Origin: Primula veris
Taxonomy: Eukaryota; Streptophyta; Magnoliopsida; Ericales; Primulaceae
Assembly: GCA_963682055.1 (NCBI GenBank)
Contig: OY821747.1
Span: forward strand, 17,100,258-17,164,257
Direction of reading: 5' to 3'
DNA: 64,000 nt
In this document: piece by piece, positions 2,611 to 46,600 of the stretch
Layout of the letters: every line of letters begins with the position of its first letter
How positions within the stretch are numbered: the first letter of the stretch is position 1
Program-made: the position numbers and the translations under genes
The notes under the pieces: generated by a model
Databases searched by the model: none
What the model saw: the letters and a program-made list of their open reading frames with translations, nothing else
What the model was told of the DNA's origin: nothing

Positions 2611-5600
2611 ATGCAATCATTATTATTACCAAGATGGAGAAATAATTTTGTGGTTGTTTTACAGTCAGTAAAAGCAGCTTCAATTCATTCCACCGCTGTT
2701 TGTTCTGATAAAAGACGCAAAAACAACAACAACAAATATAAAAACCACTCTGTAACTTATTTTTTTCCCCTCTTTTTAATTGTCTTATTTTTGATCTAAC
2801 AGGTTGTTTCTTTTGTGCAACTCATCTTAGTTTGTATTATCAATTAATTAATTTCTTTGCTGTGACTAAAGGTTTGATGGAATTATCAAAAAGTTATATT
2901 TTTGTTGTAGTTTTACTTTTTTCTTATTTTTGATCAAACAGTTTTCTTTTGTGCAACTAATCTTAGTTTGTATCATCAATTAATTAATTTCATTGCTGTG
3001 ATTAGAGCTTTGATGGAATTATGAAAAGGTTGTAATTTTGTTGTAGTTTTACTTTTTGAATTTTATTAGCATATGTTTGTTTGGACTTTATACGCTTTAA
3101 CGACGCTTTGTTTCTGCGAATTTGTATATTCAATTGCACTATAGTGACTATAGAGCTCTGATGGAATTATGAAAATGTTATATTCGTGTTGTAGTTTTAC
3201 TTTTTGAATTTTATTATTATATGTTTGTTTGGCCTTGTTTTTGCGAATTTGTTATAAGCCGAGGAAAAATACAAACGGGTTTATGGAAATTTGTAATAAA
3301 TTTATCAGAAACTATACAAACCACTCAGTTAGTTATTTTTTTCCTCTTTATTTTTTTTTTATTTTTAATCAAACAGGTTGTTTCTTTTGTGCAATTCATC
3401 TTAGTTTGTATACTTAATTAACAAAATTCATTGTTGTGACTATAGAGCTCTGATGGAATTATTAAAAGCTTATATTTTTGGTGTAGTTTTACTTTTTGAA
3501 TTTTATTAGTATATGTTTGTTTGGACTTTTTTTTTGCAAATTTGTTAAACCTCATCTTTTGTGCAACTCATCTTAGTATGTATACTCAATTGCAATGTAG
3601 TGACGATAGAGCTCTGATGGAATTATCAAATAGTTAAAACTTTTGTTGTAGTTAATTTTTTTTTTTTAATTTTATTAGTATATGTTTGTTTGGACTTGTT
3701 TTTGCGAATTTGTTAAAAGCTCATGTTTGTGAAACTCATCTTAGTTTGTATACTCAATTGCACTAGAGCTCTGATGGAATTATCAAAAGCTTATATTTTT
3801 GTCGTAGTTTTACTTTTTGAATTTTATTAGTATATGTTTGTTTGGAACTTTAGACGTTTTAAGGAGGCTTGTTTCTGTGAATTTGTTAAATGCTGAGAAA
3901 AAACAGATGTGCTTATGGATATTTGTCAGAAAGGCTGTTTTTTTTCGTGCACTCGTTCTTGTTTGTGTACCCAATTCGCCAGTGGCGGAACCAGAAACTC
4001 AAAGCTTAAAGTTAGGAGTATTTATATAAAAAAATGTTGTAAAAGGTCAGTTGTTTCTTAACGTGGGGTTGCTGTAGCCCTGCCTAGCTTACTCTTAGTT
4101 CGTGGCCTGCAATTTGTGCGCTCGTGACTATAGTCTAAAGAGAGTTTGGAACAAGCCTAAGTTTTATTCTTTTGCACTTTTTCTATGAACCGGCGATTTT
4201 TGTTTGGGACCGTCTAAAGAGTGTATTCAAGGGTGACGGATTGTTTTCGCAAGTCTGTTAAAAGCTGAGGATAAAGATGGGTTTATGAAACTTTACGTAT
4301 CTTGGGTTTTTGAGGTTAGAGATAAAAAAAGGTGAACATTTTAGCTGACTACCGAGTACTGAAATAGCATGAAACTATTCTTAAAGCAGACTTTCCGGGG
4401 TAAACGATGCAACCTAAGAATTGTTCATTTACAATTTCAACTTAAAAATATAAGAGTATGTTTTAGTTATTTTGATTCCAATATTATTCTTAAAATGGTT
4501 ATTACTATTGCATATATTTTTGACTTGTGTAAAGAGATAAATCTATAACATGTATATGGACTACTTAAAAATTGTACCTTTTGACCTTAAAAGTAAAGTT
4601 TACTTATGATTTTGTGTGCTTACAAGATGCATCAAAACAAGCTCCAAGTAACATCCCTTACGTGCTCGATATCTGAGAGTGGATTTCACTAAAAAAAGTT
4701 AGGTTTTTAAAGTCACAAGGAGGATTCTGGGTCATGTCGGCTGCTTAGGTTCTGTAAAAACTTCAAAAGAGTTCAAGATAAGGCATAGGATGGTGCTTAG
4801 GATAACTAAATAGGTATTAGCTAAGTAGCTATTTACTTTTGCAACATGTTTGACTAGACTAGTTACACTCTCTGCCTGGTTTGGTAACGTCGTGACATGT
4901 TAGAGACCTTTTCTCAAAGCACTATCCTGGTGTTTTGTAAATTAAATTCTAGAAATTGCATTTGGGAAGAAGTGTAGTATTTGGTAGCACCTCATTTAGA
5001 AAGGATAGAAATAGATACATAAAAATACAACTTCTGTAAAACTGAGTGTGTTGTGGTAACAGAACATCATAGAGGCATTACCGCATAGTTTACTTGTATT
5101 GTATATCACTAGGTACCTCTAAAACTCTGCAAGAAAACAGAAATAAGTTGAGTAACACTGTTTTCATTTTATCAAACACCAGCACATATATTTCTCATCA
5201 GGGGATAAAAATTGAAGCGTAAGTATAAAGCTTTTCACCAGAAGCATTACCAGACTAGTCTTATGACATGGCAAAACATTTTAATTTCCTGCGGGTCTTC
5301 TTTGAAATCAACATAAATATACTTACGCTATGAATCTCGTGCTTTGACTTGTAGGTGTTTGTTTGATATATAAGGTGAACCATACAGATATATGATGTTT
5401 GGCTGTTTTGGGGGGTCAATTGGTTGTTTTGATAACTAGTGCTAACTCTTTAATTTTTTAGTTAATACTACTCCCTGTATGACATTTTGGTTAGTGTTTA
5501 TGCTTTTTAAATGGACCAACTTTAGACACTTGTAGTTTTGCACATAAATGTTTAAGAACACTACTACTTATTAACTTTCTCAAATGGCTGTCTATTTATA

Positions 5601-37700: not shown

Positions 37701-37901
37701 CTGATTTCTTTATTTTTCTTCGAACATTGGTGCCTCCGTAATGCGGGCGAGGACTATTTGCTTTATTTCTTTATTCATGTATTTGATCTTCTCATTGTCT
37801 TGTTGATATTTCATTGACTGGACTGCGTTTCCTTTGTTGTTTTCGTCGTTGGGTACTTTGTCGCCTCCGTAACGCGGGCTAGAACTATTCAATAATCTTG
37901 G

Positions 37902-38262
37902 TTGACTCTTGCTCATTGGTACCGGCATATTTGCCTCTTTGTTTGGCTTTTCTTTGTTTGACTTTTGCTTACTGGTACCTGCATATTTGCCTCTTTGTTT
38001 GGCTTTCCTTTGTTCGACATTTGCTTACTGGTACCTGCATATTTGTCTCTTTGTTTGGCTTTTCTTTGTTCGACTTTTGCTTACTGGTACCTACATATTT
38101 GCCTCTTTGTTTGGCTTTCCTTTGTTTGACTTTTGCTTACTGGTACCTGCATATTTGCCTCTTTGTTTGGTTTTCCTTTGTTCGACTTTTGCTTACTGGT
38201 ACATGCATATTTACCTCTTTGTTTGGCTTTCCTTTGGTTGACTTTTGCTTATTGGTACCTGC
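37902..38262 (+). repeat. 56-bp minisatellite, six copies plus a partial
   Basis: Unit TTGACTTTTGCTTACTGGTACC...TTTGTTTGGCTTTCCTTTG. The first and seventh starts (37902 and 38238) are exactly 6 x 56 bases apart. As 56 is not a multiple of 3, the same unit is read in all three frames, which makes three overlapping spurious frames here. Confidence 0.95.
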
Positions 38263-38340
38263 ATGTGTGCTTCCGGTACATTGGAGGACTTGCTAGGGAC
38301 TCAAACCCTATCGCCTCCGATACGTTGGAGGACTTATGAT

Positions 38341-38709
38341 TCCTAGGCACTTTCTTAGACATGCCATGTTGGGAATTAGTAACAATATTCCTAGGCACTT
38401 TCTTAGACATGCCATGTTGGGAATTTCACAGTATTCCTAGCCACTTTCTTAGACATGCCATGTTGGGAATTTCACAGTATTCCTAGGCACTTTCTTAGAC
38501 ATGCCATGTTGGGAATTTCACAGTATTCCTAGGAACTTTCTTAGACATGCCATGTTGAGAATTTCACAGTATTTCTAGGCACTTTCTTAGACATGCCATG
38601 TTGGGAATTTCAAAGTATTCCTAGGCACTTTCTTAGACATGCCATGTTGGGAATTTCACAGTATTCCTAGGCACTTTCTTAGACATATCATGTTGGGAAT
38701 TTCACATGC
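38341..38709 (+). repeat. ~47-bp minisatellite, eight copies
   Basis: Unit TCCTAGGCACTTTCTTAGAC...GCCATGTTGGGAATTTCACAGTAT. Eight copies in tandem, contiguous, mostly one or two substitutions apart. It lies just 3' of the integrase stop codon (minus reading). Confidence 0.95.
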
Positions 38710-38814
38710 CTCCTTGGAGGACTTGTTAGACAGCATGACAAAATATTTCATTTATTCAAAAGATAATGTCATGACAAAGCAGAGGTAAGGTAGTACCTGG
38801 GATGGCAAGCTAGC

Positions 38815-38839: not shown

Positions 38840-38844
38840 GCTAC
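38840..38844 (+). repeat. Left TSD (GCTAC) of the copia palindrome
   Basis: GCTAC directly before TGTTGG; identical to 45186-45190. Confidence 0.95.
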
Positions 38845-40104
38845 TGTTGGCCCGTGTGGCTAAACCTTAGAGGGGGTAAGTGAATAAGGTTTTTAGGCGT
38901 TTTTGCAGAATTAAAATTCTAAGCGCAACTAACAACCCAACTAGCTCAATATATATTTGCGATAATAAATATGCGATGATAATGTATGAATAAATTGAAA
39001 CATGCGCACAATCACAAAAATATAAGTTGCGGAAAGTAAAAGTTAAGGAAAGAAATTGACACCGCGATTTATAGAGGTTCGGCAAAACGGCCTACGTCAT
39101 CTCCTCGGTATTCAAGCTACCGAGTATTTCACTAAAAATCTTCTTTCCGATTTTACAAATCCTATCGAGCTCAATCAATCGATTGGCTCACCCTCTACCC
39201 AAGGTTCCTACTCTTGATACAAGTGCAAGCAAACACGTTTATGAGTCAACGACTCCCCCTCACTCTATGAGTACCCAAGTGTTTAACCTAGAACTTTTAA
39301 CCAACACTTTGGCTTAAAAGCTTCTACCCAAACACTCACTCACAAATGAGCTTATAAAACGCTCTTTACAAAATTGTTGAAATTAAAACAACTCTCACAA
39401 TTTGATTGCTTCTAAATAAGCTAATTTGTGATTTTGATGTTGTTCGATCTTGGTTTGAGCTTGTATTCGCTTTCTTTTCAATTTCTCTCTTTTTGAGCTT
39501 TTTCTCACCAATGGTGATTTTAAGTGTTTAGGATGGAGAGAGGTTGAAGGATTGATTGTGTATCTCTTGGGATCTCTCAAACAATGAATTTGGGAGGTAT
39601 TTGAAGGATAAATGACCTTGTTACCGTCGTATGAGGTGTTATGCTTTTATCCATTGGTTTTAAGCAATTTCTCAGAATAAGCTGAAAAGCTGCTTTTGAA
39701 ATATGCAGAAAACGATTGGTCGTTTTCTGCATTCGATCGGTCGTTTTCAGAAAATGATCGGTCGTTTTATAGATTCGACCGGTCTTTTAAAAGACAACCT
39801 CACTGGAAGAATTTTTGCCAAAACGATCGGTCGTTTTTGTCCAGACGATCGGTCGTTTTCTGGCAATCTTCAGTATTTCCGCTTTACTTCGAATGCTCGT
39901 AACTCCTTCGTTTTAGCTCCGATTTTGGTTCCACTCGGTCCGTTGGCTTCGTATTTTATTACTCTATCTTTCTGGCGCTGAAATTTACATTTTCTCTTTT
40001 TTGGAAAAGACAAAGCATTATATCATCGAATAGAGAAATCGTAAAATCATTAAAACATAATCAAACTTATAATCAAAATCAATTATTGAACCCATAGTTC
40101 AACA
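38845..40104 (-). repeat. Left LTR of the palindromic element (1260 bp, inverted)
   Basis: Reads TGTTGAAC...CCAACA on the minus strand. Its outward end is the U5 end. It is the reverse complement of 43967-45185 at about 90% identity. Confidence 0.95.
39711..39862 (-). repeat. Six-copy AAACGACCGATCG motif array in the left LTR
   Basis: Six copies (with GG/GA/AA variation at the centre), seen on the plus strand as CGATCGGTCGTTTT. They lie upstream of the LTR's presumed TATA box in the LTR's own direction, that is in U3. Confidence 0.85.
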
Positions 40105-40120
40105 ATCTCCCCCATTTTGA
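40105..40120 (-). promoter_or_regulatory. Polypurine tract of the left arm
   Basis: AAAATGGGGGAGAT on the minus strand immediately before the left LTR start; the same word occurs at 43953-43966 on plus. Confidence 0.9.
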
Positions 40121-40376
40121 TTATGACAAAATAATGATAATTTTACAAAAAAATATCTCCTCCATTTTAACAAATCGCATTTCTCTAAATATCATTTTTC
40201 TTCCACTTTGGCATTATAAAAATGCAAATAAAAAGAATTTGGGATTATGTGGAGGGTTTTCAAAGAAAAAATCAAAACATGAAAAATGTTATTATGATGC
40301 ATATGCCCCAACTAATCACATATATGTAAATATTATAGAGTAGAGTATACCGAATATGTGATGTTGAGTCCGCTCT

Positions 40377-41548
40377 CTAATGGCATTTGCATTGAGCGTT
40401 TCCAAGTCCAAATAAGTGGTACCATTGGTTGGTATGCCTTCCACCTTTGTCGATCAATGGTGCTTCATTCTTTATGGTGGAGTCGATTTTCTTGACTTCC
40501 TCGACTTTTGCCGGTGTTGTCAACCACTTGTTGATTTTCTCCTTTTGGATGGAGATACCTACAACACGAGATTTGTCTTTTTGTCCCCAATTTCTTTTGG
40601 GTCCGACATTGTTAGTGACTTGGGTCTTTACTACCCATTTCAAATCGCTTCTACTAACACGAAAACGATAAGGACATCTAGAAGAATTATGCTTATTTCT
40701 ACTACAATGTACACAATGCATAAACTTTTTCGCATAACGAGAGTTATACGAAGTTTTGGGAAGGTTTTTCGTAGTATCCAATTTGGTTTGAAAACCTAAA
40801 CCTTTTCTATCATTAAAAGATTTTTGAAAAATCTTGGAAGTACTCCCTTTGGTAAAAACAACCTCTTGTTTAGGCGGGGTAGGAGTTTTAGAAATGTTAG
40901 AGGATTTGAGGAAGTGAGTTTTGTTTGTATTAGAACTAATGCAATCATAACCTAAACCACTTTTGTCATTGAAATCCTTTTGACAACTCAAAATGTTATC
41001 TAAAACGGTTTTACCTTTAGAAAACTTTGAAATTGTTAAATCAAGTTTTTCAATGGAAACGACAAGCTTGTTGTTTTTAGTTTTTAAAGTGTCATTATCG
41101 GTTTCTAAAAGCTTGACCTTGTCATTTAAGTTAAAAGCATGAGAACTCAAACCTTGTTTTTGCTTTTAACTTTATCGAAAGCATCCTTTAACTCTTCAAA
41201 ATTTTCTAATAAGTCGCAATCTAAAGAAGATGGTTTTGAAAGAGTTTTAGCAAGTCTAGACATCTCATTTTTAAGAAAGTTGATCTCGGTTTGTAAAGAC
41301 TCGTTTTGAATAATGAGATCATTGTTTTTGTCTTTCAACTCTTCCTTTTCGTCATCTACATCATGTAAAGAAAATGACGATTTCGAAATAGACTCATTTT
41401 CAATTTCATCCCTTTTTAAGGATCTTATTTCTTCATTGAGAGAAGAATTTATCCTTTTAAGAGATTTAACCTTCTCTACATGCTTAGGAAGTTTTTCAGA
41501 ATAAATTCCACACATGTGAATTAATTCATCATGGAATAAATTTTTCAT
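40377..41548 (-). pseudogene. 3' half of copia-type gag, left arm
   Basis: Two frames joined by a one-base loss near 41150. 41548-41147 is a coiled coil (SLKRINSSLNEEIRSLKRDE...), and 41150-40377 (257 aa) carries on to a second zinc knuckle (CVHCSRNKHNSSRC, CX2CX4HX4C) and ends NAQCKCH-stop. It equals 42528-43687 of the right arm in inverted orientation. The C-terminal 80 residues are intact here but frameshifted in the right arm. Confidence 0.85.
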
Positions 41549-43687
41549 ATTAGAAGGATAGGATGAGTATGTTTTTACAAAGTTATAATGTTAAACTTTG
41601 GATGACCATAAAAGTAGGATATTCCGCACCTATATCCCAAAATAGCGAGAACCCAATCCCCGTAGAGGACTTAGATAACGCTCAACTAGAAGCCTACTCT
41701 ACTAACGCTAAAGCGATGTACGCTATTGTTTGTGCCGTTTCCCTTAACGAGTACAACAAAATTTCCGCTTGTAAAACGGCTAAGGGTATGTGGGATAAGT
41801 TAGTGGTTATGCACAAGGGAACTTACCAAGTTAAGGATTGCAAACTCCAACTATTAGTTCATGACTACGAGCTTTTTAAGATGAGCGAGGGAGAAACTAT
41901 TTTCGATATGCTTGCTAGATTTACTACTATTACTAATGGATTAACATCTCTTGGTAAGTGTTTGTCTTGTAAGGAAATGGTTTCAAAGGTGATTCGGAGC
42001 TTACCGAAAGAATGGGAACCAAAGGTCACCGCAATTCAAGAGACGCACGACATGAATACATACACTCTTGATGCATTGACGGGTTCACTTATTACTCACG
42101 AGATCACCCTCAATAGTCACAAGCCAATCTTGAAAAAGAAGGAAATATCTTTCAAAGGAACAACTTGTGACGAAAGCGATGTGTTATCCGATGACGAGAA
42201 AAATTCGATGCAAACCATTTGAATCGTCAAGGAAATACTAAAGCTTAAAGGCAAATGCAAACATAAAGGTAAATCGTCAAATACTTCAATTATTTCTAAC
42301 GATTTTGTTTGCTATGCTTGTGGCAAAGAAGGACATATGGCGAGAGATTGCGGCAAGAATCGCAAGAGCAAAGGCAAGAAGAAAATATCCGCTTCAAGCT
42401 CTAGCGATAGCTCCGACCAAGATGAAGTCGATCATCTTGCTTGCTATGTGGCCTTGGAAGACAACAATGAGCCTAACCAATCGTCTTCAAGGGAAAGTGA
42501 AAGTGAAACCGGTGAGGTAAATGACCTATCCTACGATGATTTACTTCATATGTGTGATATTTACTCTAAAAAGTTTCCTAAACTTTCGGAAAAGGTTGAA
42601 TCTCTTAAAAGGATAAATTCTTCTCTCAATGAAGAAATAAGATCCTTGAAAAGAGATAAAATTAAAAATGAGTCTAGTCCGACATCGTCATTCTCTTTAC
42701 ATGATGTAGATGACGAAAAGGAAGACTTTAAAGATAAAAACAATGATCTCGTCATTCAAAATAAGTCTTTACAAACCGAGATCAATTTTCTTAAAATTGA
42801 AGTCTCTAGACTTACCAAAACTCTTTCAAAACCATCTTCTTTAGATTGTGACTTATTAGAAAATTTTGAAGAGTTAAAGGATGCTTTCGATAAAGTTAAA
42901 AGCAAAAACAAGGTTTTGAGTTCTCAAGCTTTTAACTTAAATGACAAGGTCAAACTTTTAGAAACCGAGAATGAAACTTTGAAAACTAAAAACAACGATC
43001 TTGTCATTTCCATTGAAAAACTTGACTTAACAATTTCAAAGTTTTCTAAAGGTAAAACCGTTTTAGATAACATTTTGAGTTGTCAAAAAGATTTCAATGA
43101 TAAGAGTGGTTTAGGTTTTGATTGCATTAGTTATACCTCAAACAAAACCCGCTTCATCAAAGCCTCTAACATTTCTAAAACTCCTACCCCGCCTAAACAA
43201 GAGGTTGTTTTTACCAAAGGGAGTACTTCCAAGATTTTTCAAAAATGTTTTAATGATAGAAAAGGTTTAGGTTTTCAAACCAAATTGGATACTCCGAAAA
43301 ACCTTTCCAAAACTTTGTATAATTCTCGTTATACTAAAAAGTCCATGCATTGTGTATATTGTAGTAGAAATGAACATATTTCTTCTAGATGTCCTTATCG
43401 CTTTCGTATTAGTAGAAGCGTTTGAAATGGGTAGTAAAGACCCAAGTCACTAACAATGTCGGACCCAAAATAAATTGGGGACAAAAAGACAAATCTTGTG
43501 TTGTAGGTATCTCCATTCAAAAGGAGAAAATCAACAATTGGTTGACAACACCGGCAAAATTCGAGGAAGTCAAGCAAACGACTCCACCATAAAAAATGAA
43601 GTACCATTAATTGACAAAAGTGGAAGGCATACCAACAAATGGTACCACATACTTGGATTTGGAAATGCTCAATGCAAATGTCATTAG
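41536..43687 (+). pseudogene. Copia-type gag, right arm, truncated at the palindrome junction
   Basis: The frame is recognisable from about 41536 (NFSY, then a TAG where Trp is expected, then KDRMSMFLQSYNVKLW), the usual N-terminal region of copia gag. The first ~20 residues are missing. After the gag domain (to ~42190) there is a TGA at 42220-42222, then the same frame continues to a zinc knuckle (CYACGKEGHMARDC, 42310-42351), a Lys-rich linker, a long coiled coil (42570-43080), a second knuckle near 43346 (CVYCSRNEHISSRC) and a stop at 43425 caused by a one-base loss. The remainder (to 43687) is in another phase. No pol follows; the polypurine tract is 266 bases on. Confidence 0.88.
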
Positions 43688-43952
43688 AGAGCGGACTCAA
43701 CATCACATATTCGGTATACTCTACTCTATAATATCTACATATATGTGGTTAGTTGGGTCATATGCATCTTGATAACATTTTTCATGTTTTGGTTTTTCTT
43801 TGAAAACCCTCCACATAACCCCAAACTTTTTATTTATTGCATTTTGATAATGCCAAAGGGGGAGAAAAATGATATTGAGAGAAAATGTGATTTATTATAA
43901 AATGGAGGAGATATATTTATACTTGTAAAATCATCATTAGTTTGTCATAATC

Positions 43953-43966
43953 AAAATGGGGGAGAT
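43953..43966 (+). promoter_or_regulatory. Polypurine tract of the right arm
   Basis: AAAATGGGGGAGAT directly before TGTTGAAC, the LTR start. Confidence 0.92.
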
Positions 43967-45185
43967 TGTTGAACTTAGAGTTCAATAATTGATTTTGATT
44001 ATAACTTTGATTATGTTTTTAATGATTTTACGTTTTCTCTATTTCGATGATATAATGCTTGTCTTTTCCAAAAGTAGAAAATGTAAATTTTAGAACGTCA
44101 GAAAGATAGAGCAATCAAATACGAAGCCAACGGTCCAAGCGGAACCAGAATCGGAGCTAAAACGAAGAAGATACAAGCATGCGAAGTTTAACGAGAAAAC
44201 CGAGAAACTGCCAAAGAAAAACGACCAATCGAAATGGCAGAAACGACCGATCGTTTTTGGTCCAAATTCTTCCAGTGAGGTCGTCTGAAAAACGACCGGT
44301 CGACTGTGAAAAACGACCGATCTTTTTCTGCAGATTTCAAAAACGACCGGTCGACTGAAAAAACGACCGATCGTTTTTCAGCCATTTTCAGAAACAGCTT
44401 TTTAGCTTTTTTGAATAAGCAGCTTTAAACATTGGATAAAAGCCCTCAACCTCTACCAACGGTCATAAAACAAAAAAAGACTTTGATGGCCATATAAACC
44501 ACCCCAATCACTCTCCAATGACATCCATTCGTAACCATTCATCATCCTTCAACCTCTCTAAATCAAAACTCTAAAAATCACCATTTTGGTGAAATAATTC
44601 GAAAAAGAGGAAAATTGAAGAAAAAGCGATTCAAGCTCAAATCAAGAGCAAACATCATCAATATCACAAATTAGCTTATTTAGAAGCAATCAAAGTGTGA
44701 GTGTTGTTTTACCTTCAAAATTTTTGTAAAGAGTGAATTATAAACTCATTTGTGAGCGAGTGATCGGGTAGAGGCTTTGTAAGCGAACGTTGCTTAAAAG
44801 CTCTAGGTCTTTTCATTCGGGATACTGATGGAGTGAGGGGGAGCTTAATCGGTCGATTAGCTCATTAGGATTTGTAAAATCGGAAAGAACATTTTAGTGA
44901 AATACTCGGTAGCGTGAATACCGAGGAGAGGACGTAGGCCGTTTTGCCGAACCTCTATAAATCGCGGTGTCAATTTCTTTCCTTAACCTTTACTTTTCGT
45001 AACTTATATTATTGCTTATTTTCTTGCTTGCGTTTAGGACTTCTAGCATTTCATTAACGTTTATTAAACGCTTAAGCTTAGAATTGCGAATAGTTGGGTT
45101 GTTAGTTGCCATTAATTTTAATTCCGCGAAAAACGCTAAAAACCTTATTCACCCTCCCTCTAAGGTTTAGCCACACGGGCCAACA
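43967..45185 (+). repeat. Right LTR of the palindromic element (1219 bp)
   Basis: TGTTGAAC...CCAACA. CATATAAACC at about 44487-44496 is the likely TATA box, so the R-U5 part would be the last ~650 bases and transcription would leave the element rightwards. Confidence 0.95.
44217..44385 (+). repeat. Six-copy AAACGACCGATCG motif array in the right LTR
   Basis: AAACGACC(A/G)(A/G)TCG occurs six times in 170 bases, 100-270 bases upstream of the LTR TATA box. The core alternates between CGACCGATCG and CGACCGGTCG. It is a candidate binding site array for the LTR promoter. Confidence 0.85.
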
Positions 45186-45190
45186 GCTAC
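45186..45190 (+). repeat. Right TSD (GCTAC) of the copia palindrome
   Basis: Identical to 38840-38844. Confidence 0.95.
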
Positions 45191-46600
45191 GTTCCAAGAA
45201 TTCTTTTCTCCTCGGCTGTTGTCGAACAGGACGCTTTTGATCTTGTAGGATACTGGGCTTGTTCTTTTAACAATTTCGTATGGGCCTTCCTAGGTGGGGC
45301 TCAGTTTGCCGTGTATCTCGTTTCTGGTATAGACCATTACTCGCCGTAGCACCAGTTCTCCTACCATGAATTCCTTGGTCCCTTTCACCCTCTTGTCATA
45401 GGTTTGCTTGACGTTTTGTTCATACTTTGCTAGGGTAAGGGCTGATATCTATCGTTTCTCGTCTAACATGTCGAGCTCCTCTCTCATTCTTTGTTCATTG
45501 TTTCCCTGCTCGACTAAAGTTGTTTGGAGTGTGGGTAGTCTGATTTCCGTTGGTATGATGGCTTCGACGCCGTACGCTGAGCTAAACGGGGTTTCCTTGG
45601 TGCCCGTCTTCGGCGTAGTTCGGCACGACCATAAGACGTTAAGTAGTCGCTCGGGCCATCTCCCCTTTGCTTGTTCCAGGGTTGTATTTATTCCATCTAG
45701 GATAATTCGGTTTGAAACCTCTGCTTGGCCGTTACCTTGTGGGTACGTTGGAGTCGAATAGAACTTTCTAATACCAAGTTCTTCGTACCAAAGCTGCAGC
45801 TTGGCGTTCTTGAACTGGGTGTCGTTGTCTGCGATGATGGCGTATGGTATACCGAACCTAGTGATGACGTGCTCCCAGATGAACTGCTTGACATTGCTGG
45901 CTTTAATTTCTCGGAGAGGTTTAGCTTCCACCCACTTGGTGAAGTAGTCCGTCGCTACGATCAAATATTCAACGCTGCCGGTTGCCTTAGAAAGCTTCCC
46001 GACTAGATCAATTGCCCATTGGGCAAATGGCCATGGTGCCGATATCGGGGTCATCATAGAGGATGGGAGCCGAGGTATCTTGGCGAATCGTTGGCACTTG
46101 TCGCATCTTTGGACATAAATGTCGGCATCTCTTTTGATATAAGGCCACCAATATCCCTGTGTGATTGTCTTGTTAGCGAGGGACCTTCCTTTGATATGTG
46201 CTCCGCATGATCCTTCGTGGATCTCTTCCAAGACTGGTTGTTGCAGTTCGGGACGGACGCACAGAAGGTGGGGTCCTCGGTAACTAGACTTATACAGTTT
46301 GTCGTCATCGGATAGCCATAATCGAGGGGCCTTTCTCGTGATTTTCAACGCTTTTATCTTGTCCGCCGGGAGCGTCCCGTTTCGCAAATAGTGAATCATG
46401 TCGTCCATCCACCCTAGTTCGTATTGAATTGACGTTACTCGGTCTATTCTTCTGGTGATGCTCGGGGTTTCCAAAAGTTCCACTGTGATTGACCGAGTGT
46501 TGGCAAATGTTAATGTCAAGGCTAAGGTCGCCAAGGCATCGGCTTGTGCGTTTTCGGTGCGATTGATCCTTATTAATTCGCACTGCTCGAACGTGGCCAT
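45191..46600 (-). pseudogene. Tat integrase
   Basis: 46600-45449 holds an open frame of 383 codons. It starts in the linker after the second RNase H (NAQADALATLA) and has the HHCC zinc finger (H near 45995, then CQRF words at about 46100: QRCDKCQRFAK). The catalytic core follows with D (WAIDLVG), D (IIADNDTQF) and the E region (GNGQAEVSNR). A TAG at about 45448 interrupts it. The C-terminal domain goes on in the same frame to 45191 (MVGELVLRRV..., LSPTWEGPYEIV) and would end at 38815 across the copia insertion. The third catalytic position should be checked in an alignment. Confidence 0.88.

Follow-up and report, generated by a model that had tools for sequence, protein, structure and literature searches.

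We describe a copia-type long terminal repeat (LTR) retrotransposon copy in Primula veris that was integrated once, as an imperfect palindrome, and whose two arms, on the evidence of trees and identities, derive from two different members of one gag-only family. The window analyzed—i.e. the whole stretch of 64,000 nucleotides from contig OY821747.1—carries this element at 38845-45185 (6,341 bp), with two LTRs that face outward, each accompanied by a polypurine tract and 3' gag. The element sits on the contig that we call C8, in a genome of 436 Mb. We put the probability at roughly three in four that it records the single integration of a head-to-head dimer complementary DNA (cDNA) made from two family members, and this estimate includes host end-joining of two unfinished cDNAs. 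The parts of the element, with the parent of the left arm called L and that of the right arm called R, are listed below by window position.

38840..38844: target-site duplication GCTAC, left copy; single GCTAC at unoccupied sites in relatives of the host element
38845..40104, minus strand: left LTR, TG...CA, 1,260 bp, U5 end outward
40105..40116, minus strand: polypurine tract of the left arm; the same tract stands before the 3' LTR of ordinary copies
40117..41534, minus strand: 3' gag and 3' untranslated part, parent L
41531..41545: junction, R side of the imperfect inverted homology, including ATGG at 41531-41534
41535..42526, plus strand: 5' gag of parent R, beginning near codon 23 and forming the unpaired centre, Retrotran_gag_2 (PF14223)
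42527..43954, plus strand: 3' gag and 3' untranslated part, parent R
43955..43966, plus strand: polypurine tract AATGGGGGAGAT, right arm
43967..45185, plus strand: right LTR, 1,219 bp, U5 end outward
45186..45190: target-site duplication GCTAC, right copy

Unlike an ordinary insertion, which has direct LTRs with one U3 and one U5 end, the element has inverted LTRs and a U5 end at both termini. Specifically, the outer ends of both LTRs read ...GGGCCAACA, in agreement with the initial annotation, which had called both termini U5-side; the inner ends start with TGTTGAAC or a close variant (U3) and adjoin the purine tract AATGGGGGAGAT and its complement. The inverted LTRs with their polypurine tracts and 3' gag, which had also been noticed at that stage, are confirmed by BLAST, where 42527-44843 aligns with 41538-39253 in inverted orientation at 86% and 44835-45186 with 39195-38844 at 83%. 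This inverted-repeat match between the left arm (38845-41538) and the right arm (42527-45185) is far above chance. Two properties were absent from the earlier description, namely the divergence of the palindrome (LTR 77%, gag 92%), which bears on the mechanism, and the inequality of its arms.

In the right arm, gag begins near codon 23; the left arm has only gag 3' of mid-gag, and the unpaired centre of the palindrome spans about 1 kb (41535-42526). The right arm has no 5' LTR of its own, no primer site and none of the first ~22 gag codons (counted by eye on the sequence of the relative L034), and its alignment to ordinary copies begins 126 nt inward from the 5' LTR—e.g. in L021 the LTR ends at 1706 and the match runs from 1833. 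The primer-site motif TGGTATCAG is not found on either strand of the element. On the plus strand, gag spans 41535-43425 and is followed by a 3' untranslated part; the open reading frame (ORF) at 41563-42222 matches PF14223 (Retrotran_gag_2, copia-type gag) with 107.6 bits vs. a cut-off of 27. Because the primer site is lost and the LTR promoters should face outward, the element should be a dead end for copying.

The perfect GCTAC duplications first seen at the outer ends are present at 38840-38844 and 45186-45190. When the flanks are joined with a single GCTAC (243 bases), all of the 40 places scored, out of 1,210 candidates, match at 89-97%, and all do so across the join. Eight unoccupied sites that were fetched align without gaps (229-236/243), with GCTAC in 7 and GTTAC in 1. 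The target DNA is complete at the insertion site, and one perfect 5-bp duplication bounds the whole unit. Since the joined flanks with one GCTAC match the unoccupied site, the whole palindrome is a single integration, and the initial annotation was right to treat it as one palindromic unit.

Ordinary relatives give the background against which this copy can be read. Readable two-LTR copies were recovered at 10 of 20 fetched loci, measure 4,726-5,035 bp from repeat to repeat, and have direct LTRs of ~1.1-1.2 kb; in all 10, TGGTATCAG adjoins the 5' LTR and the tract GGGGGAGAT precedes the 3' LTR. Their 5-bp duplications, read by eye, are perfect in 8, have one mismatch in 1 (L037) and are unreadable in 1 (L036). 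The other 10 loci are truncated, nested, arrayed or rearranged, or run past the end of the fetched stretch. At 4.7-5.0 kb these relatives have no room for pol, so that gag-only is the normal state of the family, as judged from length rather than from a domain search. With a copia gag, direct-LTR relatives and a 5-bp duplication all found, the family is a gag-only, TR-GAG-like LTR retrotransposon of Ty1/copia type. The element had been described early on as gag-only, which holds; its gag-only state had also been given as what makes the copy worth describing, which does not, as ordinary relatives are LTR-gag-LTR too.

Some relatives are themselves rearranged. L026 and L038 have direct repeats longer than one LTR (1,547 and 1,429 bp, respectively), suggesting tandem LTR-gag-LTR-gag arrays in the family. 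In L034 (C7:21000900-21007900), an inverted U3 fragment of ~360 nt (1366-1740) replaces the 5' LTR of an otherwise ordinary copy; it has 97% identity to the 3' LTR of the same copy and is fused to the primer site exactly at CAACAAT. We rejected L034 as a second U5-U5 copy, given that the U3 fragment ends after ~360 nt and that no outward U5 end or duplication was found in the 8 kb fetched upstream. A family solo LTR is inserted in inverted orientation within the gag of another copy at L041 (C10:4651600-4656100, 3015-4179), where the gag pieces that flank it overlap by 5 bases, as a target duplication would give. A candidate second palindrome at C10:4652967/4654614 is actually this solo LTR nested inverted in gag.

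Several lines of evidence indicate that the two arms come from different parents, because the arms never group, ordinary LTR pairs do, and the arm LTRs are only 77% identical. The arms form one clade in 0/200 bootstrap trees for both the 3' gag segment (gag3, 19 rows) and the LTR (30 rows), built after hits outside 85%-150% of query length were dropped. They are still together in 0/200 of the enlarged trees (gag3 30 rows, LTR 38 rows), which add ten relatives near one or the other arm, plus L041 for the gag part only. The enlarged LTR tree excludes rows of at least 1,500 bases, which removes both L025 LTRs, and includes a row of L067 whose end is not a normal LTR end. The two LTRs of an ordinary copy, by contrast, come out as sisters every time, in 11/11 pairs of the first trees and 10/10 of the enlarged ones.

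The placements of the arms differ between segments. In the gag3 tree, L064 is the sister of the right arm (98/96); the left arm falls among L041, L059, L060, L061, and L063 (90/83), with L062 next (95/90). Among the rows compared in the LTR tree, L060 comes out as the sister of the right arm (100/100), and L059, L064, and L066 group with the left arm (95/100). In windows of 150 columns, the left arm tracks L059 across much of gag and the LTR, and L066 for roughly the final 165 nt of U5; the right arm tracks L064 in gag as far as ~43423 and L060 through the LTR. As read from these comparisons, the crossed labels reflect mosaicism in the family; a reciprocal LTR swap between the arms is not claimed, as the sliding windows reveal general mosaicism across the family. 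The L066-like part of the left LTR (38845-39010, the rest being L059-like) is what an intermolecular first-strand transfer would leave, and the parent may already have been mosaic.

The divergence between the arm LTRs exceeds that of ordinary LTR pairs. Over full alignments, the arm LTRs have 77.3% identity, 125 transitions, and 144 transversions (Kimura two-parameter distance, K2P, 0.27), and the arm gag3 segments have 92.0% identity with 75 transitions and 40 transversions (K2P 0.086). Ten ordinary LTR pairs have 96-99% identity and K2P of 0.005-0.037, and transitions equal or exceed transversions in 10/10. Mutations gathered after insertion would accumulate equally in LTR and gag and would be biased towards transitions, and the arm LTRs show neither pattern; therefore, the divergence of the arms is most likely older than the insertion, as far as substitution patterns tell. 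Close relatives of each arm occur at other places, the left arm having 95% identity to C10:12062156, C5:14571466, and C9:30335076 (40 of 2,396 candidates scored) and the right arm 94% to C10:21197717 (40 of 1,035 candidates scored).

The arms meet at 41531-41534 (ATGG), which bears out the initial placement of the meeting point near 41535. The early gag of ordinary copies reads ...TTTTGATGGAATAAATTTTTCATATTGG; the window matches it up to ATGG and then the complement of mid-gag of the left-arm subfamily (CATCAT...). The last 15 letters of the growing R minus strand are AAAAATTTATTCCAT. The junction falls at an imperfect inverted homology between early gag of one parent and mid-gag of the other, with 9-14 of 15 bases matching in 14 relatives of the L side, among which L008 is the same place as L027. 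R 41531-41545 matches 14/15 bases in L023 and L037 and 13/15 in L042, L044, and L047, and ATGG itself is common to R and 9 of the 14. When all 15-mers of R 41531-42526 are set against the L037 gag, 1 of 2,382,332 placements reaches 14/15, and it lies at the junction; once the comparison takes in all R gag and 3' sequence, comparably good placements are also present. These matches suggest, but do not prove, that short homology was used at the join. The genome search proposed at the outset for the central junction found the exact 26-base pattern (up to three mismatches allowed) at one place, the element itself. Each of the other 3 places has exactly 3 mismatches, two of them lying in the fetched family copies L023 and L037. 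A mobile palindromic family was therefore rejected, as the search gave no second copy of the junction.

How could such a molecule arise? A U5 terminus forms where minus-strand synthesis starts at the transfer RNA (tRNA) primer. We propose that RNAs of two different gag-only copia members, presumably co-packaged, would have been reverse transcribed in one particle, and that each would have given a minus-strand cDNA starting at the tRNA primer site, hence with a precise U5 end. The R minus strand, grown to about codon 23 of gag, would have paired through its 3' end (..AAAAATTTATTCCAT) with an imperfect match in mid-gag of the L minus strand and then been extended by copying the L strand back to its U5 end. 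Completion of the other strand from the R polypurine tract would have given a linear DNA molecule bounded on both sides by U5 LTR ends, which integrase, if it accepts two U5 ends, would have inserted with the usual 5-bp duplication. Two minus strands joined 3'-to-3' place U5 at both termini without further assumption. We infer that reverse transcriptase made the join ahead of integration, and likewise which strand served as primer. Host end joining of two unfinished cDNAs gives the same product as strand extension, and the two are inseparable on one example; strand extension is the simplest route.

The same architecture could also have been reached within the chromosome. An ordinary R insertion at GCTAC may later have had its 5' LTR swapped, together with the primer site and the opening codons of gag, for an inverted L stretch, by break repair or replication template switching, with entry in the 5-bp TGTTG common to both LTR ends and exit at ATGG. 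Such a replacement keeps the target duplication, and TGTTG/CAACA is indeed common to the two LTR ends as an inverted repeat; moreover, the inverted U3 fragment joined at CAACAAT in L034 means that an inverted join at this motif has happened in the family. However, it requires two separate switches, one of which has to hit a stretch of 5 bp if the U5 terminus is to adjoin the duplication exactly, whereas integration of a dimer cDNA obtains this exact abutment free from integrase, and we consider the replacement unlikely. Independent insertion of two oppositely oriented copies, with the intervening DNA lost, or a nest, would find a precedent in the opposite nests of the family (the inverted solo LTR in gag at C10:4654614). 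This would leave unexplained why the target sequence is complete and why one 5-bp duplication bounds the unit, and, with an inner duplication pair not searched for, we hold this origin to be highly improbable.

Self-primed fold-back, in which one minus-strand cDNA copies itself into a hairpin that is later opened and integrated, would yield the same two U5 ends and unpaired centre. The initial annotation had offered it beside a switch between two templates as a source of its head-to-head cDNA; the head-to-head cDNA and the two-template switch stand, but the self-primed second strand fails, as the arms come from different members. Arms made by fold-back are identical at birth and would stay closest relatives, which is difficult to reconcile with 0/200 bootstrap trees and an LTR identity of 77%, so that we give this route next to no credence. 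The genome also offers hundreds of family LTR ends (670 within one mismatch) to an assembler, and the assembly is used as drawn, so that an artefact joining two repeat copies has to be considered; such an artefact is not expected to yield a perfect 5-bp duplication together with an unoccupied site that matches exactly, and we regard one as very unlikely.

Integration of a dimer cDNA from two members remains the preferred reading, and several observations besides the reliance on the assembly as drawn weigh against it. The homology at the breakpoint varies with the relative that stands in for parent L, which itself was not found, and falls to 12/15 with L043, L045, and L012, to 11/15 with L046, L048, L049, L027, and L015, and to 9/15 with L016. 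The nearest left-arm relatives in the gag tree (L059-L063, which are sites L042-L046) give only 11-13/15, 5 of the 14 relatives are without ATGG, and, when L027 stands in, the placements that reach at least 13/15 do not include the junction. Short homology of this kind equally suits host end joining or replication-based repair. The variable LTR parts align uncertainly, so that the transversion count is possibly inflated. Finally, no second proven U5-U5 insertion was found, and the route rests on one event.

Searches for outward-facing ends bear on this last point. U5 ends within one mismatch occur at 670 places, with no outward pair within 10 kb among the 100 listed (judged by eye), and an A-ending U5 pattern occurs at 337 places, with one outward pair among the 100 listed that looks like a nested solo LTR; in both cases, the two ends of the element itself are not among the matches listed. 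For the outward pair, C1:12561521(-)/12564056(+), there is a third end at 12559042(+) and gag is broken at 12561521, so it is probably a nested solo LTR, judged from coordinates. A gag search against plasmids gave no match and is of no use here.

To the right of the insertion site lies an integrase ORF (45449-46600, minus strand, PF17921 and PF00665), which makes a repeat copy the probable target, one that we infer to be gypsy-type. Just to the left, the window has adjacent tandem arrays at 37842-38764, with periods of 56 (7 copies listed) and 46 (7 copies listed).

The element resembles several known systems in part. TR-GAG elements are non-autonomous LTR elements, and the ordinary relatives are like them in being LTR-gag-LTR without room for pol, with a primer site, polypurine tract, and 5-bp duplication; unlike TR-GAG, the element has no primer site, no direct 5' LTR, and two parents. 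DIRS-type elements have inverted terminal repeats, a tyrosine recombinase, and no target duplication. The inverted long terminal repeats are a likeness to this group, but here there is a 5-bp duplication and the ordinary relatives have direct LTRs; a Pfam scan of the 3 longest of the 6 element ORFs of at least 100 amino acids gave no tyrosine recombinase match, and the element may be non-autonomous.

Closer parallels come from template switching. The nearest report found concerns grasses, whose complex LTR retrotransposons carry three LTRs, two complete cores, and highly similar outer LTRs, and were attributed to abnormal template switching between co-packaged RNAs, with the switch in R regions and, as we understand the model, LTRs in series (Sabot and Schulman 2007; PMC1950507). 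Like them, the element is a single insertion with 5-bp duplications in which two parent sequences are fused; unlike them, it has two inverted LTRs (77%), U5 at both ends, a join inside gag, and a lost primer site. The element is an inverted variant of the template-switch complexes found in print (PMC1950507). New Onsen insertions in Arabidopsis are, according to the study, pairwise recombinants of family members attributed to two co-packaged RNAs (PMC5668417). The element shares with them a mosaic of two family members, but the study describes no inverted product, the terms "inverted" and "palindrom" being absent from its main text. For Cassandra, the part of the article drawn on here describes tandem, not inverted, copies (PMC7215508). 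The initial annotation mentioned palindromic LTR elements as reported in plants, which our literature searches did not confirm. Among the titles and abstract starts that came up for inverted or palindromic LTR insertions, subscription papers not included, none reports a plant U5-U5 insertion, a result that does not prove absence.

For many complex LTR insertions, recombination after the event offers a way to explain them away. In this case a single fossil unites four features: the unoccupied site is exact, both termini are U5, the arms stem from two different lineages, and the junction lies at short homology. A bolder conjecture, which we find doubtful, is that reverse transcription in plant LTR retrotransposons repeatedly takes a side path, a jump from minus strand to minus strand between co-packaged genomes, yielding U5-U5 molecules that integrase accepts; inverted-repeat copies could then feed hairpin small RNAs against their own family, and L034 would be a second, damaged product. 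The analysis also provides a search recipe—i.e. outward U5 pairs with one duplication, which direct-LTR searches would miss. If our reading is true, two different RNAs were reverse transcribed together in a plant, the partner to which a cDNA became joined was a second cDNA strand instead of an RNA, and an integrase of copia type worked on a pair of U5 ends. The element would then be a rare fossil of a copying mistake, a mirror-image fusion with ends of the same kind facing outward.

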